A DNA stretch of 64,000 nt. It comes from Chrysoperla carnea (taxonomy: Eukaryota > Arthropoda > Insecta > Neuroptera > Chrysopidae). Positions 1 to 64,000 of the stretch are shown piece by piece. Positions within the stretch are counted from its first letter, which is position 1. Each line of letters begins with the position of its first letter. The translations under genes and the position numbers were made by a program. The notes under the pieces were generated by a model. The model did not search any database. It was given only the letters and a program-made list of their open reading frames with translations, and was not told where the DNA came from. Location of the stretch: positions 138,825,172 through 138,889,171 of the forward strand of contig NC_058337.1 of the NCBI RefSeq assembly GCF_905475395.1. Reading direction: 5' to 3'.

Positions 1-142
1 TAGCTTTTTTTAATATCTTCTTTAAAACAGAACAAGGAGATTTTAATCTGTAATGTATTTCAGCAGCTATATTAGCTTTATATAGTTTAGTGCTAATAGC
101 AGCTATGATATTATGTAAATCATTAGTATTTATACCTTGCAT
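1..142 (-). pseudogene. RelA/SpoT-like (p)ppGpp synthetase fragment, cut by window edge
   Basis: Reading leftward from an ATG at 140-142, an open frame runs off the window edge and encodes about 47 residues (MQGINTNDLHNII..., then AEIHYRLKSPCSVLKKI). The second part resembles the start of the RelA/SpoT synthetase fold, where a basic segment precedes a conserved Lys-Lys-hydrophobic stretch. Rickettsia genomes carry several short, split spoT-like genes, so a small stand-alone fragment is normal there. The IS200 copy at 177 lies just upstream and may have removed its promoter. The assignment rests on a short resemblance seen by eye; the frame itself is clear. Whether the rest is intact cannot be seen here. 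Confidence 0.5.
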
Positions 143-176
143 AATTAACATTTATAATAAATTATAACGTTTGTTA

Positions 177-759
177 TCAATTACTAGCGTCTAAAGCCGG
201 TAGTTTGGTTTACGCTTGCAAAGCAGATTAAAAGCGTAAACGCTAAAACTCTGATATTCTTAAATCATCTTTTTTATGATATTCTTCTTGTTGCTCTATA
301 TACTTCTGTACTGCTTCTGAATTCACATTACCAACTGTAACAACAAAATACCCTCTAGCCCAAAGTTGTTGACCCCAATATCGCTTACGAAGTAGTTCAA
401 ATTCCTGTAGCAATTTACGACTACTCTTTCCTTTAATATATTGTAACACCTTAGATATTGAGATACTCGGTGGAACTGATACTAATATATGAACATGATC
501 AGGACTTATGCTGCCACTAATTATATCTATGTAATTAGCTGCACATATTTCCTGAATTACTTCCCTTGCTCTACTTGCTATTTGCCCAGTTAAAACTCTA
601 TACCTGTACTTTGTACAAAACACTATATGATACTTTAAATCATACAGGCTATGAGACCCTCTCCTATATTCCATCTCTTCCTCTAGTAACCTATTAGATA
701 GATTATACTAAAGTGTTCGCCTAAAGGCGAGGGTGTTAACCCTATCCCACTTAACTACA
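177..759 (-). mobile_element. IS200/IS605-type insertion sequence, copy 1 (583 bp, complete)
   Basis: This is a complete copy of a 583-bp element found six times at full length in this window. Read in its own direction it starts TGTAGTTAAG after a TTTA target and ends GTAATTGA. A left-end hairpin (TCGCC-TTTA-GGCGA) and right-end hairpins (ACTACCG...CGGTAGT, and GTTTACGC...GCGTAAAC) lie under the tips, as expected for single-strand transposition by a HUH enzyme. There are no terminal inverted repeats and no target duplication, which fits the family. It lies between the spoT-like fragment and the ABC transporter pseudogene. Confidence 0.93.
243..674 (-). CDS. tnpA: IS200/IS605 family transposase TnpA (Y1 HUH enzyme), copy 1
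   Basis: This 143-residue protein is the usual length for an IS200-type TnpA, which cuts and rejoins single-stranded DNA ends through one catalytic tyrosine. The HUH metal-binding motif is visible as DHVHILVS near residue 60, after YHIVFCTKYRYRVL at the N-terminus. The conserved QLWARGYFVVTVGN segment follows near residues 104-117, and the likely catalytic Tyr is in AVQKYIEQQ near residue 125. The enzyme acts as a dimer on the hairpins at the element ends. The frame is open, so the copy may have been active until recently. No TnpB partner is present, as in IS200 itself. Confidence 0.95.
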   Translation of the reverse strand: MEYRRGSHSLYDLKYHIVFCTKYRYRVLTGQIASRAREVIQEICAANYIDIISGSISPDHVHILVSVPPSISISKVLQYIKGKSSRKLLQEFELLRKRYWGQQLWARGYFVVTVGNVNSEAVQKYIEQQEEYHKKDDLRISEF

Positions 760-769
760 TAAAAATATA

Positions 770-2528
770 TTAATTATTTTCCTCTTCCTGCTGTTTATAC
801 CATAGTTCTGCATAATAGCCTTTTTGTTTCAGTAAGGTTTTATGGTTGCCACGCTTGACTATATAGCCATATCTAACACAATAATCTCGTCTGCTTCAAT
901 TATTGTTGATAAACGATGAGCAATAATTAAGGTAGTATAATGCTCAGATATTTCTTTAAGACTTGCCTGAATCAGCTTCTCAGTTTTAGTATCAAGTGAG
1001 CTTGTCGCTTCATCAAATACATATATTGATGGATTTTTGAGTAACGTCCTTGCTATAGCGATGCGTTGCTTCTCACCGCCTGAAAGCTTTAAACCTCGCT
1101 CACCTACTTGAGTATTATACCCTTCCGGCAAACTAGTAATAAACTCATGAATATGGGCGTTCTTTGAAGCAGCTATAACCTCATCATAGCTAGCCGAATT
1201 ATCACCATAAGCGATATTGTAATATATCGTATCATTGAACAAGACAGTATCTTGCGGCACGATTCCAATAGATTTGCGAAGCGAGCTTTGTGTAACCCCT
1301 CTTATATCCTGTCCGTCTATAGTAATACTGCCGCTTTTGATCTGAAAAGCAAACGTGAGATGGTTGACTTACCAGCCCCGCTACTCCCGACTATCGCAAG
1401 CGTCTTACCACTATCTATAGTAAAGCTGATATTATGTAAAATTGGACGTTCTTGATTATAAGCAAAATTCACCTCTTTAAAAGCGACTACGCCTTTTAAT
1501 ATAGAAAGCTCTTTAGCGTCTTTTTTTTCTTCCATACCAACTAGGGCATTCTTAATCTCTCTATAAGCAAAACCAAGTATTGAAAGTGGGATTGATAGCT
1601 GGAAAAGATAAGTATTAACCATGATTAAATCGCCAACAGTCATTTTACCTTGATTTATTTTAATCGCCGATAGTATCATAAGAGCGACAAGCCCAAGGGA
1701 TATTATAAAATTCTGCCCTTTATTTAAAATGGATAGGCTATTAGTTGTCTTCGTTGCTGATTTTTCATAAATTTGTAGTGCCTCATTAAATTTAGAGGCT
1801 TCATATTTCTCATTACTAAAATATTTAACGGTCTCAAAATTCAGCAGGCTATCGATTGCCCTATTATTTGCGATATTGTCGCTTTGATTCATCTCTCGTG
1901 CAAACGAAATCCGCCAAGTACTAATTAGGAAAGTGTAAAGAACGTAAATTGACATGGTTACTAAAATAGTGAAAGAAAACCAAATGCCATATACATACCA
2001 TAATATCCCGCTTACAAGGATGATTTCCACACTTGTTGGAAGAATATTAAATAATGAATAACGCAGCACCGCTTCTATGCCTTTAGTGCCACGCTCTATT
2101 GACCTACTTAAGCCGCCGGTTTTTCGTGTAATATGAAAACGCATGCTTAAATTATGCATATGCTTAAAGACATTAAGAGCAATAAGCCTAGTCGCTTGAT
2201 GCCCTACTTTTGAGAAAATAATATTGCGTAACTCGCTAAATATCTGAACAAATATTTTAGTCCCACCATATACCATAATCATGCCGATAATAACCGAAAG
2301 GGCTAGATTTTTATTTAAGCCGTCTATTACATATTTATAAACTATTGGTATGAAAATATTTATTACTTTAGCAAGCAACAAACAAATAAGCGAAGTAACA
2401 ATCCGCAAACGTATGTTAAATTCTTTCGACCATAAATAAGGCAGAAGTGAATAGAATGAATTTTTATGTTGATTTTGATTAGGCATTGTTTGATGTATTG
2501 TTACGTGGATTAGTTTTGTTCTTGTCAT
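770..2528 (-). pseudogene. Atm1-type ABC exporter, frameshifted (pseudogene)
   Basis: This encodes a half-transporter with an N-terminal six-helix membrane domain followed by a nucleotide-binding domain, like mitochondrial Atm1 and its rickettsial relatives, which export thiol or glutathione-linked compounds. In order I see Walker A (GSSGAGKST), the family signature (LSGGEKQR), Walker B (YVFDEAT) and the H-loop (AHRLST), then a tail ending KQQEEENN and stop at 770-772. The frame breaks twice. A small deletion near 1345-1352 falls just after Walker A. One A is missing near 867-872, where LDNGYIVKRG would otherwise be read. The start may be the ATG at 2528 or the one at 2486. No functional ATPase can be made from this copy. 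Confidence 0.88.
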
Positions 2529-2529
2529 C

Positions 2530-4044: not shown

Positions 4045-4627
4045 TCAATTACTACCGTCTAAAGCCGGTAGTTTGGTTTACGCTTGCAAAGCAGATTAAA
4101 AGCGTAAACGTTAAAACTCTGATATTCTAAAATAATCTTTTTTATGATATTCTTCTTGTTGCTCTATATACTTCTGTACTGCTTCTGAATTCACATTACC
4201 AACTGTAACAACAAAATACCCTCTAGCCCAAAGATGTTGACCCCAATATCGCTTACGAAGTAGTTCAAATTCCTGTAGCAATTTACGACTACTCTTTCCT
4301 TTAATATATTGTAACACCTTAGATATTGAGATACTCGGTGGAACTGATACTAATATATGAACATGATCAGGACTTATGCTGCCACTAATTATATCTATGT
4401 AATTAGCTGCACATATTTTCTGAATTACTTCCCTTGCTCTACTTGCTATTTGCCCAGTTAAAACTGTATACCTGTACTTTGTACAAAACACTATATGATA
4501 CTTTAAATCATACAGGCTATGAGACCCTCTCCTATATTCCATCTCTTCCTCTAGTAACCTATTAGATAGATTATACTAAAGTGTTCGCCTAAAGGCGAGG
4601 GTGTTAACCCTATCCCACTTAACTACA
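4045..4627 (-). mobile_element. IS200/IS605-type insertion sequence, copy 2 (583 bp, complete)
   Basis: This is the same 583-bp element as copy 1 with both end hairpins present and TTTA at its 5' flank (read as TAAA after 4627 on the plus strand). It sits between the right end of the IS3 copy and the 3' tail of the permease gene. It differs from copy 1 at only a handful of positions that I can see. Confidence 0.93.
4111..4542 (-). CDS. tnpA: IS200/IS605 family transposase TnpA, copy 2
   Basis: The 143-residue frame is open and nearly identical to copy 1, with a few substitutions (RYTVL for RYRVL, VIQKI for VIQEI, KDYFR near the end). The HUH motif and the C-terminal tyrosine region are unchanged. 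Confidence 0.94.
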   Translation of the reverse strand: MEYRRGSHSLYDLKYHIVFCTKYRYTVLTGQIASRAREVIQKICAANYIDIISGSISPDHVHILVSVPPSISISKVLQYIKGKSSRKLLQEFELLRKRYWGQHLWARGYFVVTVGNVNSEAVQKYIEQQEEYHKKDYFRISEF

Positions 4628-4635
4628 TAAACCTA

Positions 4636-4992
4636 CTAATTTAAATCACTTAAAAATATACTGACCATTGTCGGCATATATACTACTACAAAAAGTAGCG
4701 ATAAAAACACGGTGGCAGCGACCTTTTCAGGATAAAATTTTTGTAAATTTGCTATAACTATGGTATTTACAGCTAAGGGTGCTGTAGAAAGTAGCTTTAA
4801 CGCATTATAATAATCATTATTATACCATTTTGTTACAAAATGATCAAACATGATAAATAGCCCTACCTCTAACGGAAAAAATAAGAATTTAGCAGCAAAA
4901 GTAGCCAGAGTAAATTTTATATCCACTTCAAATTTTTGAAGTGATGAAAGAGCAAGACCTACCATAACCATACCTAGTATAGAAAAAGAACC
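4636..4992 (-). pseudogene. Auxin efflux carrier-type permease, 3' part (split by LTR element)
   Basis: This is the C-terminal part of an AEC-family membrane transporter, whose bacterial members export or import small organic anions. The frame reads SFSILGMVMVGLALSSL and ends in FVVVYMPTMVSIFLSDLN. The GMVMVGLALSS stretch is a typical conserved helix of the family. The 5' part lies at 10080-10655, beyond the LTR retrotransposon. Removing the element and one copy of the AACC duplication rejoins the frame as IYNMKG-SFSILG. Several hydrophobic helices remain visible. See the 5' part for a further frame break. Confidence 0.88.
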
Positions 4993-5312
4993 TGTGGTGT
5001 CTCTGTCAAGTTAAATAAATTATTGTACCTAGGTATCTAAAGTGTCACTACCGGTACATTTGTACATTTTATATTCTATGATAATTAGATATGACATCTG
5101 ACACACACGCCAACTAAGCTCAGTGGGAACGAAGTGATTAGAACTTGTTCTCAGTCAGTATCTAAGCATCAAACATTCAGTATTCATCAATCATTATACA
5201 AGCGAAGTTGAATTTATGAACAAGCGGCTAAATGTATTTTAATTAAATAAAATTTAATATAATAATTAATAAAAGTCTTGATTTGATTTCTAATTACACC
5301 AAACCAGCCACA
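4993..5312 (+). repeat. 5' LTR of the gypsy-type element
   Basis: This 320-bp direct repeat is about 98% identical by eye to 9760-10079, with TG...CA tips extended to TGTGG...CCACA. Confidence 0.96.
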
Positions 5313-5610
5313 GTGGTGACCCTCGTGAGTTTGAATTAAATATTTTAATGTTAAAATTGGGAAATTGTGTAATTTTGGAAATAATCAAGACAAAAACAAC
5401 AAAAATCGATGCCATTTGTAAATTTTTTTCATGTGTCCATAGTGCTAAATAAAAACATTTTTTCATCGTATTCAAAACTGTGATTTAAAAAAGCAAACAT
5501 TTATTTTAATATGAATTTAATTGAGTGATTAAAATTATTTAAATAACAATTAAAGTGAATGACATTAGTGTTTTTGGTGTGTGTTTTTTGAATAAACAAT
5601 CTGAATTGAA

Positions 5611-6435
5611 ATGCCAGACAACGACAACCCAGATGCGAATAATGGAAGACAACTTCAAGTATCGCGAGTTTCCATAAAAATACCACCATTTTGGAGGAAA
5701 AACGTGGGTTTGTGGTTTACTCAAGTCGAATCACAGTTCATAACATCCAATATTACAAATGTAATGACCAAATTCCACTACGTACTTGCTGCTATAGAGA
5801 GTGAGATACTCGATGAGGTTAGTGATTTTGTAATAAATCCTCCGGCAACGGAAGTGTATACCAAATTTAAACAAAAATTGATCGAACAATTTTCGGATTC
5901 AGAGGCTCGTAAAATTAAAAAGCTATTAACTGAATTAGAACTTGGGGATAATCGTCCATCGACATTACTGCGTGAGATGAAACAATTAGCAGGAAGCCAA
6001 CTTACTGATGAATTTTTACGCTCATTATTTTTACAGCGTATGCCCCAAAATGTACGCTCAGTGTTAGCAACTAGTTCAGAAACCGTGGAGAAATTAGCTC
6101 TGATGGCTGATAAAATTGTCGAGATTGCCTCACCATCATATTCAGAGGTTAATAGTGCCTCAACAAGTCAACAACCCACAGTGCATGATCAAATTTCAGC
6201 TTTATCGAAACAAATTGATGTTTTGACAGCGCAAATAAACGAAATAAAAACTAATTCGAATAATAAATCTAGATCGCGTAGTCGTTCTAGGTCAAATTCC
6301 AGGAATATTAACAAGCATCCATCATGTTGGTATCATCATAAATTCGGGTCGAATGCACGCAATTGCATATTACCTTGCAATTTTTGCAAATCACAAACTA
6401 ATACGCCTAAAAAGGTTTGCAACCCGGAAAATTGA
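5611..6435 (+). CDS. gag: Gag-like protein of the gypsy-type element
   Basis: This 274-residue frame has the layout of arthropod Ty3/gypsy Gag. A capsid-like region ([21 protein letters not shown] near the N-terminus) is followed by a region rich in Arg-Ser ([11 protein letters not shown]) and a Cys/His cluster (CWYHHKFG...CNFC) of zinc-knuckle type. It would form the particle shell around the element RNA. It overlaps the pol frame by about 19 bases, consistent with the frameshift expression known in the family. It is a recent fossil copy in nuclear DNA. Confidence 0.9.
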
Positions 6436-9400
6436 ATGATCCGTTGCTATGTGCGGCGAAGCACGGATCTTCATCACGCCGCTTATTTGTTTTTGACAGA
6501 AATTCTAACGCTGAATTTCTGGTTGACACAGGAGCTGATATTTCTGTCATTCCCGCTAAAAATTTTCCAAATCGTAAACTGGCGGAATATAAATTATTCG
6601 CTGCAAATTCTTCAAAAATTAATACGTATGGTGAAAAAGTTTTGCTTCTCAACTTCGGTTTACGTCGTGATTTTAAGTGGATTTTTGTTATTGCGGACGT
6701 AGATCAAAACATTTTAGGAGCAGATTTTCTTAGAAAATTCAATATACTTGTTGACATGAAGAATGGAACATTGATTGATGGTACTACATCGATTCGATCG
6801 GATGGCCATATTCGAGAAATTAATTCACAACCTATATCATCTCTTAATTTAACAAATGTGGAAAAAGTTTACTCAGATATTGTAAATAAATTCGCTGATA
6901 TCACTAAACCTCACATGTTAACTGATAAAATTACTCATGATACGAAACACTTTATTGTTACTAATGGACCACCGGTGTTCGCCAGGGCACGTCGTTTATG
7001 TCCACAAAAACTAGAATCTGCAAAACGTGAATTCCAAATAATGATTGATATGGGGATTTGTCGACCGTCTAAGAGTGATTGGGCAAGTCCATTACATCTA
7101 GTCAAAAAGAATGATGGTAGCTATAGACCGTGTGGTGACTATCGAGCGCTTAACGCTATTACAGTTCCAGACAGGTATCCCGTACCACACATACAGGATT
7201 TCAACCACTTTTTATTTGGTAAAACTATATTTTCGAAAATTGACCTCGTCCGTGCGTTTAATCAAATCCCTGTCCATCAAGACGACATACCCAAGACGGC
7301 AGTCATAACTCCCTTTGGTTTATTTGAATTCTTATTTCTTCCATTTAGATTACGAAATGCTGCCCAAACTTTCCAGAGGTTTATTCATTCGGTGCTGCGC
7401 AATCTCGAATTTTGTTACGCTTACATAGATGACATTTTAATTGCATCATCTAGTGAGGCGGAACATTGTAAACACTTGGAAACAGTATTCAATCGACTAC
7501 ATGAACATGGAATTACTATCAATCTTAATAAAAGCCTGTTCGGGAAAAGCGAGGTACCTTTCCTTGGGTATTTAGTCAACCACAAGGGTATCGCACCACT
7601 TCCAGAACGCATTGAAGCTATTAAAAATTACCTATTACCAGATTCAGTAGCAGATCTACGAAAATTTCTTGGTATTCTTAATTATTACCGGCGTAGCATG
7701 CCAAATATTGCCTACATTCAATCGCCTCTTATTAATTTAACTCAGAATAAGAAGAAGCGTGATAAAACTAAAATTATTTGGTGTGAACAAACCGTCGAAT
7801 CTTTCAATAAATTGAAAACAAAACTATCCAACGCAGCGATATTGGCACATCCAAATCCTTCTGCGTCTTTAATTTTAATGGTCGGTGCATCAGATTCCGC
7901 CATAGGAGGTGTCTTAGAACAACAAGATGGTGATATACGACAGCCATTATCTTTCTTCTCAAAGAAATTGAGCGATACTCAACGACGAAATAGCACCTAT
8001 GACCGAGAATTGTTAGCCATATATCTCTCAATAAGACATTTCAGATACATGCTCGAAGCTCGGCAATTTGTTATATTAACCGATCATAAACCACTTACGT
8101 ACGCATTTAAGAAGATTAATGAAAATGCATCACCACGGCAGGTGAGACACCTAGATTTTATTTCCCAATTTTCTACCGATATTCGGCATATTTCCGGGGA
8201 AAACAATATTGTGGCTGATGCTTTATCAAGAATTCAAGAAATTGTTACGCCTAACACTGTTCCGTTCGAAGAAATAGCTCAGGCGCAACAAAACGATCTA
8301 GAATTGTTCAATTTAATGGCATCTTCGCAAACATCATTAAAACTTAAAAAGATACAGACAGAATTTAGCACAGTCCCACTAGTGTGTGATGTTGCTAATG
8401 AAGGTATACGACCGTACATTCCTAAAGACTTCAGAAGATGTGTATTTGATGCTGTGCATAACCTTTCACATCCAGGTGTTAAAAGCACATTAAAAATGAT
8501 TTCAAAACGTTTTGTTTGGCCGCATATGCGTCGTGACTGTACTGCATGGGCTCAAGCTTGTACATCGTGTCAAAAATCAAAAATTTGGAGACATAACAAG
8601 AGCCCGTTAGGTGAATTTAGCATTCCTAACACAAAATTCACGCATTTAAATATCGATATAATTGGTCCGTTACCTCCATCAAGAGGATTCAAATACTGTG
8701 TGACTATGATAGATCGATTTTCAAGGTGGCCAGAGGCCGTTCCAGTCTCTGACATTACAGCTGAGACCGTCGCACAAGTGATTTATGAGGTATTGATCAG
8801 TAGATTTGGTACACCCTGTAAGATAAATACTGACCGTGGACGACAATTTGAGTCTACACTTTTCACGTCATTATCCAGGCTTCTTGGAGTTAAACATATT
8901 CGAACAACAGCTTACCACCCAGCTTCAAATGGGAAAATCGAACGGTGGCATCGCTCATTGAAATCAGCATTGAAATGCCATCTCACTGATCGGTGGGTAG
9001 ACGTTCTTCCTAGTGTATTACTCGGTCTACGAATGGCTGTTATAAGTGATCTCAAAGTGTGTCCAGCTGAAATGCTTTACGGACAGACAATAAGACTTCC
9101 TGGTGAATTTTTTTTTACATCTCAAGAAAACGTACAATGTGATACGGATACCTTTATTACCAAGTTGAAAAATACTATGCACAATTTTAAACCACAGACT
9201 GTCCCATCACATGGCAATCCCAAAGTGTTAGTGCAACCCAAACTAAACCAGTGTGAATATGTGTTTGTACGGTACGATGGAGTTCGAAAACCACTTCAAC
9301 CACCATATAATGGACCGTTTCGCGTAATCAAACGCTATGAAAAATATTTCACAATAGACAATAAGGGTAAACGGGACAATATTAGTGTTGATCGACTGAA

Positions 9401-9530
9401 GCCCGCTTACATTTTGAAAAGTGAGAGTGATAATTCCCTACCTACGGATACATTTGTGACTGATAAAGTTCCAGAACCAAAAGTAACTCGTTCAGGACGA
9501 GAAGTGCGCTTTCCTACTAAATATTTATAG
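6417..9530 (+). CDS. pol: Pol polyprotein of the gypsy-type element
   Basis: This 1037-residue frame has domains in the Ty3/gypsy order. An aspartic protease ([13 protein letters not shown], residues about 30-45) comes first. Reverse transcriptase follows ([25 protein letters not shown] near residue 340), then RNase H ([25 protein letters not shown]). The integrase has its HHCC zinc finger ([12 protein letters not shown]...CTSCQ) and a DDE core ([33 protein letters not shown]), with a C-terminal tail after it. RNase H before integrase with no split frame marks Ty3/gypsy rather than Ty1/copia. The length matches whole family members. Confidence 0.95.
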
Positions 9531-9759
9531 TGTTCAAGTGTTATCATTTTTTTTACAAGAATATTTGTTTATCGAAACATTCTATTTAAAATTTTTTAGA
9601 ATTAAATTATTATTTATTTAATATTGAACAATCTGCGTTAAATGTGAATTCATGTTAATTATTTGTTATATTTGTTAACGTATTGATTCAAACCTAATCG
9701 CATAATAATTTTTTCTCTGTAATTTTTTTTCTGTATCGCTTTCACTGAGGGGGGAGTAA

Positions 9760-10079
9760 TGTGGTGTCTCTGTCCAGTTAAATAAATTGTCGTACCTAGG
9801 TATCTAAAGTGTCACTACCGGTACATTTGTACATTTTATATTCTATGATAATTAGATATGACATCTGACACTCACGCCAACTAAGCTCAGTGGGAACGAA
9901 GTGATTAGAACTTGTTCTCAGTCAGTATCTAAGCATCAAACATTCAGTATTCATCAATCATTATACAAGCGAAGTCGAATTTATGAACAAGCGGCTAAAT
10001 GTATTTTAATTAAATAAAATTTAATATAATAATTAATAAAAGTCTTGATTTGATTTCTAATTACACCAAACCAGCCACA
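9760..10079 (+). repeat. 3' LTR of the gypsy-type element
   Basis: This is the second 320-bp LTR, preceded by a purine tract and followed by the AACC target duplication at 10080-10083. Confidence 0.96.
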
Positions 10080-10655
10080 AACCTTTCATATTATATATAA
10101 AATCATCTAAGAAATCAGGTAAAGTAAAACCGCAAAAACTAAATAAACAACCTAGGAAAAATGCATTCAAAATTGGCAATTTTACTACTTTCAATATACT
10201 ATCAGTAGTGTTTGCAAAGCTTCGCATGCAAATATAAAAGCCTACCGAACACTCGTAAATATTAACGCCTATCACTGCCATCATATAAATACTTAGCGAA
10301 TAATCATCAAAAAGCGCAGCAGCTATAGGCAACATGAAATATCCCCCATTTGCTGTACCAGCAGACAAAGCTATAATATTACGTGTATGATCCTGCTAAA
10401 ATTTACCAAAAAATAGTAAGAAAATAATGACAAAAATGTCGCAATTACAAAGGTTACAACTGTAACACTTAATGCTGAAAATGTCAAAGTTGTGCTAGCA
10501 GGAATAGTAAAGAATACTATAGGTGATATAAAATAGAATAATAAAGAAGAGATGCTATCTCTTTCAACATTTGAGTATTTACCCGCTAAAAACCCGATTA
10601 CTACACTCAATAACACTGAAACGGTTTTAAAAAAAATTATACTAAAAATTACCAT
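10080..10655 (-). pseudogene. Auxin efflux carrier-type permease, 5' part (frameshifted)
   Basis: This is the N-terminal and middle part of the permease whose end lies at 4636-4992. It begins MVIFSIIFFKTVSVLLSVVIGFLAGKYS, a first hydrophobic helix typical of AEC proteins. It continues through FYFISPIVFFTIPAST and, in another frame, NIIALSAGTANGGYFMLPIAAALF, where GTANGGYFMLP is a family hallmark. The frame changes near 10375-10400, where the first stretch ends in a spurious RIIHVIL and stop. The gene was therefore broken twice: once by this small indel or substitution and once by the LTR element. Confidence 0.85.
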
Positions 10656-10777
10656 GTAATGAGCTAAAGATATAATTATCTATAATATATTAGATTTTAT
10701 CTTTTTTCACTAAATTTTGTAAAGATTTTTAATATTAAGTTTTAAGAGGATTTTATTTAATTTTTAATTGAAAATTA

Positions 10778-50671: not shown

Positions 50672-50698
50672 ATATATATATATATATATATATATATT
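50672..50698. repeat. TA dinucleotide microsatellite
   Basis: About 13 units of TA precede AT-rich unassigned sequence (50281-50900) in which I see no gene. Confidence 0.8.
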
Positions 50699-52115: not shown

Positions 52116-52117
52116 GC

Positions 52118-52341: not shown

Positions 52342-52479
52342 ACATACTTGTAACAATAAAAAATTTGTCATAGTGGACCGCTTTTGTGAACATACTTGTG
52401 ATTTATAAAAAAAAAATAAAAAATATCACATTGTAAAAATATTATTTTTATTGTAAAATTTTATCTCTAACATATAAAA

Positions 52480-52648
52480 ACAGAGTTGTATTATAATAAT
52501 ATTTAAAAAATATATATTTATAAATTATCGAAAATACATTATAATTATTATTCTGAAAAGTATAAAACAGAGTTGTATTATAATAATATTTAAAAAATAT
52601 ATATTTATAAATTATCGAAAATACATTATAATTATTATTCTGAAAAGT
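52480..52648. repeat. Two tandem copies of an about 83-bp unit
   Basis: ACAGAGTTGTATTATAATAA at 52480 and again at 52567 starts two nearly identical AT-rich units ending in TATTATTCTGAAAAGT. Confidence 0.88.
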
Positions 52649-53060: not shown

Positions 53061-53260
53061 TTTGTATGTTTAAACTAACACTAAATTGTTTTCTATAATA
53101 ATTCAACCTAACTATCAGTTTTTTGACACCCCCACCACTACTCTATCAATTGTTCATGCGCACTACTCTATCAATTGTTTGTACACCTATCACAATACCG
53201 AACCACTTTGAGGATCATCACAACAGCAGGACACATTTCTGAAACAACAGCAAAAATTAG

Positions 53261-56200
53261 CTAAATATTAAAAACAAAAAATATAAAATACTTACACTCA
53301 ACAAATAATGCTATAGTGGCCCCATGGTTTTGTTTCACATGAATTGTGAGTAATGTATCGTTTTTGGTCAAATGGTGATAAGCCCACTTTCTGCTGTTTG
53401 ATGGTATGTAAGCGGTGTCGCTTGGATTGGATGCTTTGCTGAACATGGTAAAAGTTACGGTTCTCAAGCAAACACCGCTTATAGTCCTCAAAAGTAAGTT
53501 TTCGGATAGCTGACTTCTTGAGACCCTTGGATCGTTTAGTCTCTTTTTTATTTTGCACCCGAATAGCATACATTTTGCTACGTAATCCGACAAATTCTAG
53601 CATAACATCACCATTATTTTCATCGGACATTAAACCCTTGACTTTCTTATTACGTAGTGGCATACCATAGATGTTGTCGGGTGCATAGTCAGCCGTATCA
53701 AAACGATTAATATCCTGTTTCATGACCTCATAGACGTCAGTATTTTTCACGCTATAAATTAGACTATCGGTGTCTGTGTATAATAACCTAACATTTGTGG
53801 GGTTGTACCGTTGGTACATGTAGTTGTAGTGGAAGTCATACACAAACGTTTTCGATATGTCTAAAATTGTGAAGCCTATGTAGATGGGTTTGTTGAAACG
53901 TATCTGTGATTTTTTCATTTCAACAATACTGACGTCATTGTCGAGCACCATCATACTGTGAAAATTGGGATTGGCAATTAATTTCTTCACACCATGTTTT
54001 CCATCCCAATTTTTTCGTATGTACACAACCCGATGTTTCCTCACATTCTCCATGGTTTTACCGAAGATGGCATTAATCATGAGTTTGAATAATGCTTTTT
54101 CAAACTCATTTGAGGCGTTCTTGCGCATCTCGGTATTGAAATCAATATATGGTTTCAACCATGCAGATTGATCGAATTGTAACACACGGTGGTATTTTGT
54201 TACCTTAACACCGAGTTGTGTATACAGTTTTAAATTCCTGTAGTGCACGACATAGTTGGTCTTATTGTAAAGGGTTGACAGAAGATATTTTTGTTTTGAT
54301 CCAGGTGGTTTCGTTGTCTCCGGACATGGCGGTAAATCGCTAAAGTTATCATGTAGATGTTGGGGTATTTCAAGGTCTACTTCTAAAATGTACCCGACTG
54401 GTGAATCATCTGCAACATCCTCGATGTTTGGTGTGTCGACCCACTTAAAATTTCCTGTTGGTAGGTATCCACACATTGCTGCACCATATAGGTTCACCAC
54501 ATCATAATACATAAGGTAGACATCTTCTTGAGTTTTATCATACCCCTCTTCCATGTACTTATTGTTTGCCTTAGCATAGCGATTAGAACATTGACTTACA
54601 CCGCCTCTGATTCCTTTCTCGATAAACAACAAGTCATCAATATCCGTGAACAATTCCAATTTGATATTGGTGTATTTCAACATGGCGCTCCACGTATAGC
54701 CAGGAAGTGTGTAATAGTGACTAGGATCAAGACTATAGCTATGAATACAAGTGTTACGGAAATTTTCAAAAATATCCGCAAGTAGTAACACATCAGTTTT
54801 CATATACAGGTCTGAATAATCACCTAGTGTATGTAAATTGAATGTGTTCCATACCTGTATCGCATGGTTATAATCCTCATCCGTTATGTGTTCATCTGTC
54901 AACACACTGTAGAACGCCTCCTTTGGTGGTAATTTTGTCTCTTGGAGACGTCCCCAGCTACTCATGTATTCATATGGAAATACACCTTTTCTCGTCAGCA
55001 ATTGAAATTGTTCATCATTACTGACCTATAAAAAATTAAAAAACAAATTACAACCCTGTATTAAAAATTATTTATTTTTTATCATTTACCTCTTTATGTA
55101 AAATGGATTTTTTATCATTATCTAAATATGAGGCCAGATTTTCCAACTTGTCTGCGAGAAATCGGAAGGAATCAATGAATCTTAATTGAATGTCCGAGAC
55201 GTGCTTTGTGAAACTGATGTACTTTTCTTTGTTGATGGGCAACACATCAACTTGACCGTCGATTTCCGTCAGCAGAGCTTCAATAATAAAATGCGAATCG
55301 TATCCACTTAAGTTGTGCATCACAACAGGTATCACCCTTGAATCTTGATAATGCAGATTACAAAATTGGTGTGCTGCTCCACGGTAGATACCTAAAATAG
55401 ATTAATATAAAATTAGATGAAATTAAAAAATAATAAATAAATTACATTACCTGTGCGATGTGAATGGTCGCGAACACGTATGGAATTGGATACGAAATCT
55501 TTACCACAAATGTGACACTTCTCTGCTGACATAAAATCCAGTTCTTGTTCGACGGTGAGCGGATACATTGGTTTAACGTGTTTTATTTTTTGCTCTAATG
55601 AGTACGCTACTTGTTCCAGTTCATGAACAAACCACTTGACACAATCAGCACCACGGTATGCCTTATAAAACGATTGGTTGGGATCATGGGTACAATGAAC
55701 ATAGTAACCTACACTGTAGGGTACATGTTTTTGAATATTTTTTGTATAAGACCCATGATCCATTTCCATGTCTTCATGATGTTGTGGTACCAATAACGCC
55801 TCAAAGTCAGCGTACACCATATACTCAACACGTTCCTTGCTGTTGAAATCTTTGAACTCAACGAACCGCTCGTCATCAGTTTCAGGCATTCGTACCCGCA
55901 CTGCTTCTTTCTCACCACAATTTACTGAATGCTGTTGGAGTTTGACTTCTGTAGCAAAATAGTTGAGACATCGATCACATAAATAAATTTTATGCCTATC
56001 ACTCTTTACACTCGATCGACTCAACTTTGCTAAATTTTTTATCCAGCAAAAGTGGTGACTGTTCCCATTCTCCACAGCCAATAGATGAATTTTCTTCCCC
56101 GCAGTGTTCGAACTAACGCGTACAGGGAAAATTTCTAAATCACGTAGAAACGTATCTTTGTAGCCGTACACATTAATCGATAGCTGCGGGTTCATCTTTT

Positions 56201-57186
56201 CAAATTTATTAATTTGATCCAGAGACATGGGGAACTTTAATCCATCACATTTTAAATGATGTTTATAGTGCGGGTACTTAGTTAAACGCTGAGGATTCCT
56301 TTCAACCGGGTAAAGTGCTGACATTATCGACCATAGAAAACAATGTTGGTCTTTATTCTGGACATTAACCACAGCCAATTTATTTTTGATGACTGGTGGT
56401 AGTTCACAAAAAGTCCCAGCTGTGATCGGAGAGTACTTATTCATGTGGACTCGAATATTTATGATCATGTCAAGAGCCCAACCGCTATCGCGTTCCTGGA
56501 ATTCTTCCAATTTTTTCAGCAAATAGTTTTTGACATGATCATTGTACCACTCCTGCATGTCCGTTGTCAGATACATTTCCTTGGCCGACGTTATAAAAGT
56601 TTTCAAATCCTCCTCTTTGGTGATGGGCTTAATAAAATTGCCCGTGAACATAATATACACCTGAAAAAAAATTCAAGATCTCATTAGACTATTTAAATTA
56701 TAAATCTTAAATTTTACTTACCTTGAGGGGATGCTTCACTAGCTCACGCCGAACGTGTCTTCTAAACATTGGAAATGCCCGGTTGAAAAATATATTTGGA
56801 TCTTTATAATCCAAATTTGTAATCATACCAGTCTTCACCCTGCCCTGATGGTGGGTTTCAATTGTCTCCCAGATTAGATGTCGATTTTGTTTTTTGGTGA
56901 CTCCACCACCTTGCTTAACTAAATCTAATCGCAGTCGGTGAAGTTGCCGCTGGTATGATTTACAAAGTCCAATATTAGCTTCAAGACGCAGAGGATTTTC
57001 TTTCTTTAACATCAACATCTTTTTGAATAAGCGGATGTTCTGCTTATTAAGTATCATCCATCGCTCAGCTTCCTCCACCGTCTTGATGAGCCTCAACGCT
57101 CTCTCCACTTTCTTCATCATATCAGTGCTACCACCTTGAGGTACCGCGTTTAGCGTTTGCATAACATTTTGTTCGTAGGTGTCCAT
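53261..57186 (-). pseudogene. Polinton protein-primed DNA polymerase B, coding blocks with intron-like gaps
   Basis: Coding blocks lie at about 56707-57186, 55413-56660, 55072-55335 and 53298-55001. The last holds polymerase motif A (LMYYDVVNLYGAAM), motif B region (FEKALFKLMINAIFGKTMEN) and motif C (LLYTDTDSLIY). The block at 55413-56660 has a Cys/His cluster (CDRCLNYF...H) and an exonuclease-like start (YMVYADFEALL). Short AT-rich gaps between blocks look like introns, which some Polinton polymerase genes have. This is treated as a fossil; the gene marks the element as eukaryotic. Confidence 0.88.
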
Positions 57187-57381
57187 CTTTCAAAAAAATT
57201 ATATTTAAGTTTCACAATATTATTTAAAAAATTTATACACTTACCGTTATATTTTCAAATACTAAGCAAAATATACGTTACCGAACCGTTCAACACTAGA
57301 GTTAACTAGCAAATGAGTAATATTTGTTTTTTTTATAAAATATATAGACTAAGTTTAGAATAATAAATATATCAAAAACAA

Positions 57382-57384
<3 letters not shown>

Positions 57385-57450
<66 letters not shown>
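57385..57450. repeat. AAT trinucleotide microsatellite
   Basis: About 22 units of AAT/TAA lie between the polymerase blocks and the right repeat array. Confidence 0.92.
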
Positions 57451-57452
<2 letters not shown>

Positions 57453-57599
57453 TAACGTAAAAAATATATGCGGAAAAAACTAACTGAAGCAAAGGTGAAT
57501 TTCAAAAGAGATACTTCAACAGCTACGTACATCACTTTTTATAGCATTATCCCCACCACTAAAAAAGTTGTAATTTGATATTTTTATAATCGTAATTCA

Positions 57600-58864
57600 A
57601 ACTAATTATTTTTTCTTGGAATTCAGACAAGTTTAAACAAGTTCAAACAAGTTTGAACATGTATTTTTATTATGTAAATTTCAAGTGTCATATTACATTG
57701 CTTAATCATAAAAAAATATTAACATCCGGTCACGTATCTTGAATTTTATCATGTATACTTAAAGTGTCAAATTACAATATTTTTCAAGGTTAGATGATAT
57801 CTATTTCAACATATTCTTGAAAATTGCAGACTCATAATATTCTTTTCTTGGAATTCAGATTTGCAAATTATTATCTAACACGTTCAAGTGTCATATTACA
57901 TTGCTTAATCATAAAAAAATATTAGCATCCGGTCACGTGTTTTGACACATGTAAAATTATTTCAAACAAGTTTGAACTTGTTACAAGATGATGATATCAT
58001 ATTTTTCAAGGTCAAATCTATTTCAACATATTCTTGAGAATAGCTGACACGTGTAAAATTATTTTAAGATCAAAGTCCATTCAAACAAGTTTGAACATGT
58101 ATTTTTATTATGTAAATTTCAAGTGTCATATTACATTGCTTAATCATAAAAAATATTAATATCCGGTCACGTGTTTTGACACATGTAAAATTATTTCAAA
58201 CAAGTTTGAACTTGTTACAAGATGATGATATCATATTTTTCAAGGTCAAATTAACATATTCTTGAAAATTGCTGACACGTGTAAAATTATTTTAAGATCA
58301 AAGTCCATTCAAACAAGTTTGAACATGTATTTTTATTATGTAAATTTCAAGTGTCATATTACATTGCTTAATCATAAAAAAATATTAACATCCTGTCACG
58401 TATCTTGAATTTTATCGTGTATACTTAAAGTGTCAAATTACAATATTTTTCAAGGTTAGATGATATCTATTTCAACATATTCTTGAAAATTGCTGACTCA
58501 TAATATTCTTTTCTTGGAATTCAGATTTGCAAATTATTATCTAACACGTTCAAGTGTCATATTACATTGCTAATCATAAAAAAATATTAGCATCCGGTCA
58601 CGTGTTTTGACACATGTAAAATTATTTCAAACAAGTTTGAACTTGTTACAAGATGATGATATCATATTTTTCAAGGTCAAATTAACATATTCTTGAGAAT
58701 AGCTGACACGTGTAAAATTATTTTAAGATCAAAGTCCATTCAAACAAGTTTGAACATGTATTTTTATTATGTAAATTTCAAGTGTCATATTACATTGCTT
58801 AATCATAAAAAAATATTAACATCCGGTCACGTGTTTTGAATTTTATCATGTATATTTAAAGTTT
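57600..58864 (-). repeat. Right internal AT-rich repeat array of the Polinton-like element
   Basis: This array consists of the same units as 46131-46720 and 48800-49550, in opposite orientation, adjoining the right terminal repeat. Three higher-order units of about 650 bases can be followed. Confidence 0.87.
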
Positions 58865-60148
58865 TGAACTTGTTACAAGATGATGATATCATATTTTTCA
58901 AGGTCAAATTAACATATTCTTGAAAATTGCTGACACGTGTAAAATTATTTTAAGATCAAAGTCCATTCAAACAAGTTTGAACATGTATTTTTATTATGTA
59001 AATTTCAAGTGTCATATTACATTGCTTAATCATAAAAAAATATTAACATCCTGTCACGTATCTTGAATTTTATCGTGTATACTTAAAGTGTCAAATTACA
59101 ATATTTTTCAAGGTTAGATGATATCTATTTCAACATATTCTTGAAAATTGCTGACTCATAATATTCTTTTCTTGGAATTCAGATTTGCAAATTATTATCT
59201 AACACGTTCAAGTGTCATATTACATTGCTAATCATAAAAAAATATTAGCATCCGGTCACGTGTTTTGACACATGTAAAATTATTTCAAACAAGTTTGAAC
59301 TTGTTACAAGATGATGATATCATATTTTTCAAGGTCAAATCTATTTCAACATATTCTTGAGAATAGCTGACACGTGTAAAATTATTTTAAGATCAAAGTC
59401 CATTCAAACAAGTTTGAACAGGTATTTTTATTATGTAAATTTCAAGTGTCATATTACATTGCTTAATCATAAAAAAATATTAACATCCGGTCACGTGTTT
59501 TGAATTTTATCATGTATATTTAAAGTGTCAAATTACAATATTTTTCAAGGTCAAATTAACATATTCTTGAAAATTGCTGACTAATGTCAACGTCCCGCCC
59601 CCCGTTCACTCCATTCACTCTCCGTCAAGCGCCACTATTGGTCAAAGCCAATGACGTCACCTGGTAATTCCCCGTTTATGCTTAGGCAGCCATTCCCCCA
59701 CACCAATTCAACCACACCTCCCGACGTCATCTTGATTTTTACAGCGCTACTATTGGTCAAAGCCAATGACGTCATCAATGCTTAGGCAGCCATTATTCCC
59801 CAACACCACACCTCCCAACGTCATCTTGATTTACTATTGGTCAATGCCGAGGTTTCCAACATTCACCTAGGTTTGCCCTTTTTGGAAAAGTGTACCATCC
59901 AACTGGACCAAAACGTACATGATGTCAACGTCCCGCCCCCCGTTCACTCCCCACCACTATTGGTCAAGCCCCGTTTATGTCATCCCTCACCCCCACCACA
60001 CCTTCCAACGCCATCTTGATTTACTATTGGTCAATGACGTCATCTATCCCCTCCAACTTCCGAGGCTTCCAACATTCACCTAGGTTTGCCCTTTTTTGAA
60101 AAGTGTACCATCCAACTGTGCTGAAAGTGGGCTGACTCTTCTACTACT
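58865..60148 (-). repeat. Right terminal inverted repeat of the Polinton-like element
   Basis: It mirrors 44854-46130 and ends CTTCTACTACT, three bases longer than the left tip, before the ATTATA duplication. Confidence 0.9.
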
Positions 60149-60406
60149 ATTATAAGCACAATATTTTATTTCATTATTTATAATTTTAGGCAGAAAAAAT
60201 TTTATTTTGTGATGAATATTTAATAATTCAAGCAGGTTAATTTCATATTGTAGTGGATAATATATTCCAACATGCTTTACTTTTAACTGTTTTAATAAAT
60301 TACTGACTTGATTTAGTAAAGAAGTTTTTGTTAAATCAGAATTTATTTTATCTATATTTTTCGTTAAAAGCTCCTTGAAATGCAAACGTGATTCTTGTTT
60401 ATTCAT
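60149..60406 (-). pseudogene. 5-formyltetrahydrofolate cyclo-ligase, 5' part (split by Polinton)
   Basis: This is the N-terminal half of the MTHFS-type enzyme (MNKQESRLHFKELLTKNIDKI is split: MNKQESRLHFKEL, LTKNIDKI). It contains LLKQLKVKHVGIYYPLQYEINLLEL, the first Rossmann-like part, and continues to IKYCAYN. It starts at ATG 60406-60404, overlapping the stop of the RDD gene (TAATG), so both belonged to one operon with coxA. The 3' half is at 44584-44853. Confidence 0.9.
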
Positions 60407-60780
60407 TATGACTTTACTAATTGTGTATCAAATACTAAATCATGGAGCATTTTTTCGTCTTCCCTAAATATCATCATAATAACGCTTATTATAAAAAGTA
60501 TACCAGTTAAATTAATCACATAAAAAGCGACAAATCTAATAAATGCTTCACTACCTTTAAGAGTAGTTCCATCTTGATAAACTACTTTTAAATCTAGTAA
60601 TTTTTTCCCAATAGAGGCTTGTATTTTTGAAGATTCTAGGTAAGAAAAGTAAAATCCTGAAATAATAAAAAATAAAGCAATTTCTATCATCGTGTCTTTT
60701 AAAAATGCTATAGTCAATGATAGCAATATTCCAATTATAATTTTATCAATCAAGAAAGCAAATAATCTTCTGAGAATCAT
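60406..60780 (-). CDS. RDD family membrane protein
   Basis: This 124-residue protein has three to four hydrophobic segments. The RDD family usually carries an Arg near the N-terminus (MILRRLFAFLIDKIIIGILL, with FLID for the AxxxD motif) and conserved Asp residues. GKKLLDLKVVYQDG is typical of the central loop. Some RDD proteins act as transporters, but the role here is unknown. The frame is open. It starts 3 bases after the coxA stop and overlaps the cyclo-ligase start, giving a coxA-RDD-cyclo-ligase-C26 peptidase operon. Confidence 0.88.
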   Translation of the reverse strand: MILRRLFAFLIDKIIIGILLSLTIAFLKDTMIEIALFFIISGFYFSYLESSKIQASIGKKLLDLKVVYQDGTTLKGSEAFIRFVAFYVINLTGILFIISVIMMIFREDEKMLHDLVFDTQLVKS

Positions 60781-60783
60781 AAA

Positions 60784-62382
60784 TTATTCCTCAATATGCG
60801 GTGGTGTTTCAAATGTATGAAATGGTGGAGGGGAGGTAAGTGTCCACTCAAGCGTATCAGCTCCTTCGCCCCAAGGATTATTTGGGCAGTCTTTGCCATA
60901 TTTCAACGTATAAAAAACGATAAACACAAAATAAAGAGCAGCCGCCATAGAAATTCCTGCTCCTATCGATGAAACCATATTCCAGCCGGTAAAAGCTTGA
61001 GGGTAGTCCGGTATTCTTCTTGGCATACCTGCAAGACCTAAAAAATGCTGCGGGAAGAAAGTGAGGTTAACACCGACAAAGGTAATCCAAAAATGGATTT
61101 TGCCTAAGATCTCGGGATATTGCTTGCCTGATATTTTACCGAACCAGTAATAAAAGCCGGCAAATGCAGTGAATAAAGCACCGAGTGACATCGTATAATG
61201 GAAATGTGCCACAACATAATATGTATCGTGCAGAACTCTATCAAGTGCCGAGTTTGATAAGATTATACCTGTTACGCCGCCGATCGTGAATAATATAATA
61301 AATCCTATAGAGAATAGTATAGGCGTTGGGAAAGTAATTGAGCCGCCCCACATAGTTGCGATCCAGCTAAATATTTTGATACCTGTTGGAATTGCAATAA
61401 TCATTGTTCCGGCAGTAAAATATATAAGGGCGTTGGAAGAAAGTCCAACTGTAAACATATGGTGAGCCCATATAATAAACCCGACAAAGCCGATTATTAC
61501 CATAGCTCCGACCATGCCTTGATAGCCAAATATTGGTTTACGTGAGAAAGTAGAAATAACTTGGCTTACAATACCAAAACCTGGAAGTATTACGATATAT
61601 ACTTCAGGGTGACCAAAAAACCAAAATAAGTGCTGAAATAATACTGGATCACCGCCACCATCAGTTTTAAAGACAGTAGTACCGAAATTAAGATCGGTAA
61701 GTAGCATGGTAATAGCTCCACCAAGCACTGGCATAGCTAAAATTATCAAGAATGCAATAACTAAAATAGACCAGACAAATAACGGCATTTTGAATAGTCC
61801 CATCCCGGGTGCTCTCATATTAAAGATAGTAACGATTAAGTTGATTGAGCCAAGTATTGATGAAAGATCTGTTAAATGCAGACTGAAAATAGCCATATCA
61901 ACCGCTGCTCCTGGATGTCCGCTTATACTACTTAAAGGAGGGTAGAGCGTCCAGCCTGTTCCTGGTCCGCCGTCAACAAAAGCTGATCCCATAAGTAGGA
62001 TAAAAGCCGGAACTAGCAACCAGAAACTGATGTTGTTGAGCCGTGGGAATGCCATATCGGGAGCATCTATTAGTAAAGGTACAAAGTAATTACCGAAACC
62101 ACCGAACAAAGCCGGCATGATCATAAAGAACACCATAACCACCGCATGTGCAGTAATCAACACATTATATAGGTGGAAATCATGATTTAGGAAAGTACCA
62201 CCCGGCATTGCAAGTTCTAGCCTAAACAGCAGCGAAAACAACCCGCCGACAATTCCGGCAAATATGGCAAATATGATATACATAATGCCGATATCCTTGT
62301 GATTAGTAGAAAACAGCCATCTCTTCCAGCCGTGCGGGGTGAGGTGATCATCGTGGTTTAAATCTTCAGTAGTTATATCCAT
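60784..62382 (-). CDS. coxA: Cytochrome c oxidase subunit I (open frame)
   Basis: CoxA is the haem-copper subunit of the aa3-type terminal oxidase in the bacterial inner membrane. The 532-residue frame is full length with twelve membrane helices. Key parts are [18 protein letters not shown] (CuB His and cross-linked Tyr), WAHHMFTVG (CuB histidines), [15 protein letters not shown] (haem ligands) and an early [14 protein letters not shown] (haem a His). The start ATG at 62382 and the end TPPHIEE fit Rickettsia. No lesion is visible. It lies downstream of coxB with one or two small genes between. An open frame of this length argues that the transfer is not very old. Confidence 0.97.
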
Positions 62383-62432
62383 AATTATTATTCTGGTTGT
62401 GTTAAGTTTTTTTTAATTAAAACAATTCTATC

Positions 62433-63240
62433 TTAAAAATTAAGATTATACTTAAGTTTTACTTTTTTAAGATTATTTACATTTAATTTTAAAATATTCT
62501 CAAGCTTTATTTGATCCTTTGGTTTATTTTTAGTTATTATATAATTTATAAATGATGAGGTTCTTAAATGATTATAAGAATATTTTTTTTTAAATGTAAT
62601 TGCTTTTATTCGTAATTTCGGTATCACAATTGCAATATCTTCTAAAAGCGATTCAGTATATATCCATTCACATCTTTCCGTAGAATATCTTGAAAATCTT
62701 CCAATGAATGGTAAAATAGCCTTAAAGTTTATCTTTCTAAATCTAAATACTATATAAGTAAGACCCTGAAAAGCTGCTATATTTATTTTTTCACTTTCAT
62801 TTTTCCTAAGAAAGTATAAACATACTTCTAACGCTTCTTGATAATTTGAAGAGTTTTGACAAAAGCTTAGAATAAACTCTATTTTTTCTTCTTCATTATT
62901 TAAAGAGTATAGTAAATTTTTATCAGTAAATTTTTTTAATTTTTTATATGTAACAAAATCAATATCATTATTGAAACATGTCAAGTAAATTTTTCTTCTC
63001 AATCTTGGAACTAGATGAGCAATATCACCCAAAGTATTCATGATTTCACTTAAAAAATATTTATACTTACTATCGCTTTTTAAATGCTTAAATAGTAAAG
63101 GTAAAATTAACTCGTCTTTAATGTTATAAAATCTATGAACTAGTATTTGTAAAGCTTGACTTGCAGCTATTTGTCTAAATTCTTCTGAAGCTTTTAAGTT
63201 TTTGACCATATAGTCCCTTTTTAAACTCTTCTTCGCTCAT
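62433..63240 (-). pseudogene. Rickettsial hypothetical protein, helical-repeat-like, probable frameshift near the start
   Basis: The long frame from 63209 (MVKNLKASEEFRQIAASQALQILV) to 62433 encodes about 258 residues. It is rich in amphipathic helices, such as EALEVCLYFLRKNESEKINIAAFQGLTYIV and LLEDIAIVIPKLRIKA, like a HEAT-type repeat protein. A better start lies at 63238-63240, where MSEEEFKKGLYGQ would run into NLKASEEF if one A of the AAAAA run near 63203-63207 were extra. I therefore read it as a gene with one small insertion. The function is unknown. It sits between coxB and coxA. Confidence 0.65.
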
Positions 63241-63374
63241 TACCATGATTCATTACCTGCTGCTGCATCACTATTTAGTATTTCTTGATGCTTGTTAGAA
63301 TCAGTTATATCATTTAATAGCTTATTCAATTTAGATATTTTTGTATCAACAATTTTTTGAGTGTGAATTGCCAT
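63240..63374 (-). CDS. Small frame before the helical-repeat gene
   Basis: A 44-residue frame (MAIHTQKIVDTKISKLNKLL...AAAGNESW) ends in a TAATG overlap with the next start. That linkage suggests a real translationally coupled gene. No family is recognised, and it has no membrane segment. Confidence 0.5.
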   Translation of the reverse strand: MAIHTQKIVDTKISKLNKLLNDITDSNKHQEILNSDAAAGNESW

Positions 63375-63427
63375 AAAATTTTTAAATGTAATTATTTGTC
63401 AATTTTGGTTTTGTTGCATGGCTTTGA

Positions 63428-63603
63428 TGTCATTCCCGCGTAGATCGGTTTTTCCGTCTGAGCTAAGGAAATTACGAAGTAATCCAACTAAAAAATGCTA
63501 ATTTATAGTATTTTTTATTATTTTTTCTGGATTGCCACGCTCATTTCATTCGCTCGCAATGACGACTTTCGATCCACACAACAATGCCACGCGGGAATGA
63601 CAT
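63428..63603. repeat. Palindromic repeat between coxB and the coxA group
   Basis: GTCATTCCCGCGT near 63429-63441 pairs with CACGCGGGAATGAC near 63588-63601, enclosing GGATTGCCACGCTC and TCGCAATGACG stretches of the same family as the other palindromes. The short frame 63541-63738 on the minus strand is not a gene. Confidence 0.7.
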
Positions 63604-63667
63604 ATTAAAGTGTTTTTCGATCCATACAACAAAGCCGGACAAGTATGACATCAGGATAAAAACATAA

Positions 63668-64000
63668 TTAATTAGCTGCCAATTTTGAATTCTCACCATT
63701 TGCGACAACTTTATTCTTACTCGCAACCCAATTATCAAAATCCTCTTTGCTTACTACCTCTATAGCAATTGGCATAAAGCCGTGATTAATGCCGCAAAGC
63801 TCGGAACACTGCCCATAATATACGCTTTTTTGGCGACTCTTGTCCATGTTTCATTTACTCTTCCGGGTACGGCATCTATTTTAAAACCAAGAGATGGAAC
63901 AGCAAAACTATGTATTACGTCACCGGCTGTAATTAAAAATCTAACTGTAGCATTCTCGGGTATTACTATTCTATTATCAACATCTAATAATCTTTTTTGG
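63668..64000 (-). pseudogene. coxB: Cytochrome c oxidase subunit II, 3' part, frameshifted, cut by window edge
   Basis: CoxB carries the CuA centre that takes electrons from cytochrome c. From the edge the frame reads [40 protein letters not shown] (split: [31 protein letters not shown]), which includes the CuA His. One base is missing near 63840-63846 (TWTKSRQK expected). The rest, [23 protein letters not shown] with the CuA Cys-Cys-His-Met ligands, reads in the next frame and ends at the TAA of 63668-63670. Only the C-terminal half is in the window. Confidence 0.92.

Follow-up and report, generated by a model that had tools for sequence, protein, structure and literature searches.

A 64,000-nucleotide stretch of chromosome 1 of the lacewing Chrysoperla carnea (C1:138,825,172-138,889,171 of assembly inChrCarn1.1, in which C1 is 139,979,878 bp long; hereafter the window) carries a mixture of Rickettsia genes and host mobile elements, with 39,786 bases lying outside the three host elements that we describe below. 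We conclude with high confidence from sequence comparisons that a portion of a Rickettsia genome, probably of the bellii group, was integrated into the nuclear genome of this insect, and that the integrated DNA then decayed neutrally and was invaded by host elements. Comparison with host and bacterial genomes demonstrates the place of the Rickettsia DNA in a host scaffold, the host insertions within it and its neutral decay, and the tract is best read as the fossil of a past infection rather than as a living bacterium or contamination. Integration into a eukaryotic nuclear genome had been proposed in a sequence-only reading of the window, and it is supported by the 140-Mb HiFi/Hi-C scaffold, by copies of the host repeats elsewhere in the genome, by empty insertion sites for two of the three elements, and by substitutions that lack codon-position bias. 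Some comparisons extend to a region of 224 kb (C1:138,745,172-138,969,171) made up of the window and 160 kb of flanking DNA in pieces L001-L016.

The first host element (4993-10079, forward strand) is a Ty3/gypsy-type long terminal repeat (LTR) retrotransposon, with TG...CA LTRs of 320 bp each (4993-5312 and 9760-10079) that differ at 5 positions, a gag-like frame (5611-6435), and a pol frame (6417-9530) in which protease, reverse transcriptase, RNase H and integrase follow in that order. It is bounded by a 4-bp target duplication, AACC, whose left copy is at 4989-4992, and further copies of the element occur at 90-97% identity on C6, C3 and C5. The second (33414-37245, reverse strand) is a long interspersed nuclear element (LINE) with one open frame of 1093 amino acids encoding endonuclease and reverse transcriptase, a 3' TAA-repeat tail at 33414, and a target duplication of the variable-length kind, here the 14-bp AAAAAATGAAATAA at 33400-33413 and 37246-37259; copies at 93-98% are found at 98.8 and 99.2 Mb of C1 and on C3, C5 and C6. 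The sequence-only reading had recognized all three elements as eukaryotic insertions with duplications of 4, 13 and 6 bp, and this description holds for the elements, for AACC and for the 6-bp duplication of the third element, while that of the LINE proves to be 14 bp long and not 13.

The third element (44854-60148, unstranded) resembles a Polinton/Maverick. Its long terminal inverted repeats (44843-46570 and 58443-60155) are 95.6% identical, flank bases included, and its target duplication is the 6-bp ATTATA at 44848-44853 and 60149-60154. Used as a query, the DNA polymerase B-like frame (53298-55001) shares 99% identity with a C. carnea protein across 84% of its length. Many homologues of the frame, at 53-60% identity, carry the family B DNA polymerase domain PF03175; searches of Pfam-A and of solved structures with the frame itself returned no match. 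A Pfam search with 7 frames from the window copy brought up neither a retrovirus-like integrase nor a double-jelly-roll capsid, and we therefore call this element Polinton-like only. Frames resembling phospholipase A2 and the double-jelly-roll capsid are present in flank piece L005. The best 2 of 482 candidate copies lie on C6 and at 139.075 Mb of C1, the latter within the tract, and relatives of the polymerase frame occur at four more places in the 224 kb region (80-100% amino acid identity), together with a 61-residue piece; relative to the window, these further relatives are located at -42.6 to -12.1 kb and at 89 to 117 kb.

Two of the three insertion sites are empty in living Rickettsia genomes; the LINE site lies in an insertion sequence (IS) element, and the comparison covers the LTR and Polinton-like sites. 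The window segments to either side of the LTR element (4627-4993 and 10080-10782) adjoin, with an overlap of 5 bp, in all four genomes searched (G055, G045, G054 and G059), and the flanks of the Polinton-like element, ending at about 44855 and starting at 60149, adjoin in all five, where they overlap by 17 bp in G045 and by 7-8 bp in each of the others. The sequence-only reading also held that the bacterial halves would rejoin in frame. At the Polinton-like site the two halves, searched apart, match complementary stretches of the 5-formyltetrahydrofolate (5-FTHF) cyclo-ligase family, over positions 1-89 and 86-184 of 186. At the LTR site the left half alone matches a family (Mem_trans), and the two frames to the right have no fitting Pfam match. 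The positions of the two empty sites are as expected if host elements had entered DNA of bacterial origin, and insertion of host transposons in this manner is one mark of a nuclear integrant.

Gene inactivation is a second feature of the bacterial sequence. Measured against L017, a related Rickettsiaceae genome in which these genes are open, seven of the eight genes of the secE-nusG-rplK-rplA-rplJ-rplL-rpoB-rpoC operon carry a frame change, a stop, or both: secE and nusG have a stop inside the conserved domain, rplK, rplJ, rplL and rpoC have a frame change, and rpoB has a frame change and at least one stop. The earlier claim that essential genes are broken stands for rpoB, rpoC, secA (which is in three frames) and most of the operon, with the correction that rplA and coxA are uninterrupted. 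The accompanying claim that the bacterial genes are rickettsial is borne out by protein family matches and by DNA matches to Rickettsia genomes.

The substitutions themselves indicate that selection has been lost. Across 4,271 aligned coding sites of rpoB and rpoC, changes private to the insert are distributed over the three codon positions as 12:13:16, whereas private changes in the relatives fall mostly at third positions (G045, 2:1:30; G054, 4:1:13; G059, 10:2:38; G062, 2:2:26; pooled, 18:6:107), a difference with a chi-square P of 6.6e-8. For the insert, the ratio of nonsynonymous and stop changes to synonymous ones is 22:15; for the same four relatives it is 15:100 (Fisher P = 7.6e-8). 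A comparison of twelve IS200 copies in the 224 kb region, with one partial copy and one short piece set aside, gives 42 substitutions from the column majority, distributed 16:13:13. All three comparisons suggest that the insert evolves without purifying selection, as a nuclear integrant would. It has to be asked whether a living Rickettsia lineage could have had its own chromosome invaded by lacewing transposons, since the elements lie directly within bacterial sequence, but such a bacterium would have to carry broken copies of rpoB, rpoC, secA and other genes and substitutions without codon bias, and its DNA would have no place in a chromosome-scale scaffold; moreover, we know of no transposition of a LINE or LTR element into a bacterial genome, and we give this explanation almost no credence.

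The window sits inside a 140-Mb scaffold, with its bacterial DNA interleaved with host elements, and the 224 kb region that includes it does not contain a single N. The assembly was built from HiFi data with Hi-C scaffolding, has a contig N50 of 67.8 Mb and joins 399 contigs into 337 scaffolds; the accompanying genome note nowhere mentions Rickettsia (PMC10116181). That joining step, together with the frequent presence of bellii-group Rickettsia in C. carnea, raises the prospect of an assembly chimera, in which the assembly mistakenly placed contigs of a living symbiont in chromosome 1 and attached host repeats to them. We judge this highly improbable, given that the host elements occupy exact sites with target duplications, that for two of them the bacterial flanks adjoin in living relatives (four of four and five of five genomes searched), that the region is free of N, and that a living symbiont could hardly carry seven broken genes in an eight-gene core operon and decay without codon bias.

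Searches of the host genome (559,487,470 bases in 337 contigs) show that the bacterial DNA extends well beyond the window. All listed matches to window DNA 13301-33300 fall at C1:138,278,829-139,401,779 (147 matches reported, a lower bound, as are all our host-genome counts, since only the best candidates were scored), and the bacterial matches from queries of the LTR and LINE regions fall in the same span, 138.28-139.40 Mb. We estimate from these matches that a tract of about 1.12 Mb, strewn with rickettsial repeats and mixing bacterial and host mobile DNA, lies near the end of chromosome 1, with approximately 0.58 Mb between it and the end of the C1 scaffold. The transfer had been described as a large example from the window alone, and the tract is larger than the window. 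Two sets of matches elsewhere were considered and rejected as further Rickettsia copies. Those to the rpoB family on C3 and C5 have no DNA match to the 13301-33300 query and would fit host nuclear RNA polymerases, and matches to G055 DNA on C5 and C6 (73%) and near C1:49.8 Mb (67-79%) are taken as host genes, the query frames behind them being, in our own reading, presumably ATP synthase beta and aconitase.

An origin in an endosymbiont lineage is indicated by several comparisons. Identity of the C-terminal RpoB frame is 96-98% to five genomes of one Rickettsiaceae family and at most 92% to the rest (85 genomes searched, 83 of them matching); the DNA of window 19405-32376 is 98% identical to G055 over 13.0 kb, 97% to G054 and 95% to G045; and the coxA product is 97% identical to a protein of the Rickettsia endosymbiont of Stiretrus anchorago. 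The donor was probably a Rickettsia of the bellii group, a label that draws in part on what we take to be the placement of the named relatives. It was also chosen because C. carnea in nature is often infected by bellii-clade Rickettsia, according to two reports (PMC7762206, PMC5557424).

The insert does not match one continuous segment of G055. The tested blocks of the window correspond to four separated parts of G055 (493-498 kb, 1,092-1,096 kb, 1,178-1,180 kb and 1,242-1,255 kb), and the longest collinear block is 13.0 kb, in a comparison covering the window apart from 33301-44000. The suggestion in the sequence-only reading that over 40 kb of bacterial DNA survives in collinear order thus fails against living relatives.

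Three measures of age agree at about 0.8-0.9% neutral substitution: 25 of approximately 2,847 first and second positions of rpoB and rpoC (0.88%), 42 of 5,184 positions in the IS200 copies (0.81%), and 5 of 320 in the LTR pair (0.78% per side). At an insect substitution rate near 3e-9 per site and generation, the observed change would correspond to roughly three million generations, which is itself a rough figure. The LTR element appears to have arrived soon after integration or at about the same time. The transfer had been called old, and this is supported if old is taken to mean roughly 0.8-0.9% neutral substitution.

These data also bear on whether there was more than one nuclear integration, with chromosome pieces and perhaps a plasmid arriving at different times, a scenario that overlaps with the reading we prefer, so that the probabilities of the two do not add. 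The scattered G055 positions of the blocks would fit such a history, as would two observations outside the window. At L003:3395-6582, some 53-57 kb to the left of the window, a frame for a ParA-type ATPase is found near one that carries a DnaA_N domain. We take this pair to be typical of Rickettsia plasmids, and part of the tract may be plasmid-derived; in a plasmid comparison, the 12 of 46 records listed matched mainly at transposase and integrase genes, with weak matches to parA. In addition, a separate 326 bp stretch at C3:1,637,013-1,637,338, far from the C1 tract, has 96% DNA identity to a Rickettsia gene (the query frame resembles LptD, in our own reading of its translation), and it is a possible second, small transfer. 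Against this, the rpoB/rpoC, IS and LTR clocks agree at 0.8-0.9% even though the IS copies are spread over 224 kb, and a donor rich in IS elements could have been rearranged before transfer (G062 has dozens of such copies). Several integrations are thus possible, if on the unlikely side.

A number of observations weigh against integration followed by neutral decay as we have described it. In a tract presumed free of selection, rplA is uninterrupted, coxA is open over 532 amino acids, and a number of IS200 transposase frames have stayed open. The basis of the selection tests is approximately 4.3 kb of rpoB and rpoC and one IS family, and the nearest relative, G055, was left out of both pooled tests for having too few changes (4:0:2 by codon position; 2 nonsynonymous to 1 synonymous). 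The order of the bacterial blocks differs from that in G055, a difference that could stem from later rearrangement or from a donor rich in IS elements. In one study, gltA is reported not to have amplified from C. carnea scored as Rickettsia-free, so gltA may be absent from the insert, or the insert itself may be unfixed. Finally, two queries from G055 (80-100 kb and 200-220 kb) both failed to give an in-tract match of at least 200 bp. The first 400 kb of G055, compared with the 224 kb region for matches of at least 300 bp, yielded two stretches at one edge, of 927 bp and of 3,052 bp (95-96%), and a third of 368 bp at 75%. With approximately 4 kb shared from these 400 kb and both 20-kb queries negative, we dropped the idea of a whole-genome insert; as far as these comparisons reach, only part of a Rickettsia genome appears to be present.

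We envisage that part of the genome of a bellii-group symbiont entered germline nuclear DNA near one end of chromosome 1, on one occasion or on several, perhaps when a germline symbiont lysed and its DNA was caught in a chromosome break. Released from bacterial selection, the DNA decayed neutrally through substitutions, insertions and deletions, and stops, and host retrotransposons and Polinton-like elements invaded it, leaving a tract of about 1.12 Mb in which bacterial and host mobile DNA are mixed and which presumably lacks function.

The remaining features of the window are mostly bacterial. At the left end, an IS200-like element (175-763, reverse strand; Y1 transposase frame 243-674, Pfam Y1_Tnp), of which the tract contains many other nearly identical copies, precedes a Rickettsia ABC transporter region (773-2781, reverse) with 94% DNA identity to G055:1177754-1179815 and Pfam matches to ABC_membrane and ABC_tran, whose frame is split into 859-1260 and 1317-2528. 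The gene fragment to the left of the LTR element (4627-4992, reverse) is 97-98% identical in DNA to all four Rickettsia genomes searched, its Mem_trans match falling below the Pfam cut-off, and the Rickettsia sequence to the right (10080-10782, reverse) adjoins it in the same four relatives. Next come a tRNA-Ala (ggc) gene (11966-12041, reverse), parts of a bacterial group II intron (12633-13338, forward; Rfam RF02005 and RF00029), and a block of bacterial IS elements of the IS21, Mutator/IS256 and IS200 families (13301-19404, unstranded; Pfam) with 84-93% identity to IS copies in G062 and G047. Further copies of bacterial group II introns occur in flank pieces L007, L010, L011 and L016. The 13 kb collinear Rickettsia block (19405-32376, forward), which aligns with G055:1241596-1254585, contains a tRNA-Trp gene (19492-19567, forward) and the eight operon genes, identified by Pfam.

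To the right of this block, an IS630-type transposase (32614-33413, forward; Pfam DDE_3 and HTH_Tnp_IS630) is split by the LINE and ends with the left duplication copy, and the bacterial DNA resumes at 37246 with the second copy and runs to 44847 (unstranded), including IS200 fragments and a PPIase gene. Within it are a tRNA-Ala (tgc) gene (37774-37848), secA (39380-42080; Pfam), a glutamine amidotransferase gene (43829-44587) and the C-terminal half of 5-FTHF cyclo-ligase (44584-44847; Pfam); window 44001-44855, the sole part of this segment compared with relatives, is 99% identical to G055 DNA. A frame at 42377-42817 has a weak Fic/DOC match under the family cut-off. Beyond the Polinton-like element lie, all on the reverse strand, the N-terminal half of 5-FTHF cyclo-ligase (within 60080-60406; Pfam), an RDD protein gene (60406-60780), coxA (60784-62382) and an unassigned open frame (62433-63209), and window 60149-62419 has 91-96% DNA identity to all five Rickettsia genomes searched. 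Rfam at gathering scores found no rRNA in the window or in the 160 kb of flanks.

Large Wolbachia inserts are already known, and the lacewing tract is of the same kind, with two insertion sites that are empty in relatives of the donor. The closest parallels are the following. Chromosome 4 of Drosophila ananassae carries several copies of a Wolbachia genome totalling approximately 5 Mb, and like the lacewing tract these are megabase-scale endosymbiont DNA in an insect chromosome (PMC4299567); the lacewing tract differs in its Rickettsia donor, in its seemingly partial content and in being interrupted by host elements at mapped sites. The f element of Armadillidium vulgare is likewise a large nuclear symbiont insert, of approximately 3 Mb, that was rearranged after integration, but nonsense mutations are absent from most of its genes, and the element has a link to sex determination (PMC5541319), whereas seven of the eight tested operon genes are broken in the lacewing tract and no trait is known. 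In Dictyocaulus viviparus, nearly 1 Mb of disabled Wolbachia sequence, mostly short fragments in a draft assembly, is similarly taken as a record of past infection (PMC4046930); the lacewing tract differs in deriving from Rickettsia and in lying mainly in one chromosome region. A 2026 preprint on Curculio weevils describes Rickettsia-derived DNA within Mavericks on every chromosome, taken as ancestral to the genus (PMC13419823); Rickettsia DNA lies beside Maverick/Polinton elements in both insects, but in the lacewing there is mainly one tract, with approximately 0.8-0.9% neutral change and exact host-element insertions into bacterial sequence. Nesidiocoris tenuis also has Rickettsia gene segments in its assembly, as two short candidate transfer segments on scaffolds rather than a long tract (PMC8048687).

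Our literature searches, including papers naming both C. carnea and Rickettsia, found no published report of the lacewing tract, and the word 'nuclear' is absent from the accessible text of two papers on lacewing Rickettsia (PMC7762206, PMC5557424). The tract is a Rickettsia transfer on the megabase scale, and it sits in a publicly available reference chromosome of a biocontrol insect. A lacewing survey by polymerase chain reaction (PCR) scored Rickettsia from any one of 16S, atpA, coxA and gltA (PMC5557424); given one-locus scoring and an uninterrupted nuclear coxA, false positives are directly testable. The study with gltA-negative insects also counted 16S-negative insects as uninfected, which weighs against false positives being widespread.

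The exact insertion sites allow integration to be dated relative to the arrival of transposons, and the tract offers a way to check the proposal, made for weevils in the 2026 preprint (PMC13419823), that Mavericks collect in foreign DNA. We put forward, as a speculation that we regard as unlikely in its entirety, that the tract, being free of genes, serves as a landing zone where Polintons and other elements gather and enlarge the chromosome end, and that its open coxA has been misread as infection in PCR surveys. If this were true, the tract would drive local genome growth and at the same time give a false signal of symbiosis.

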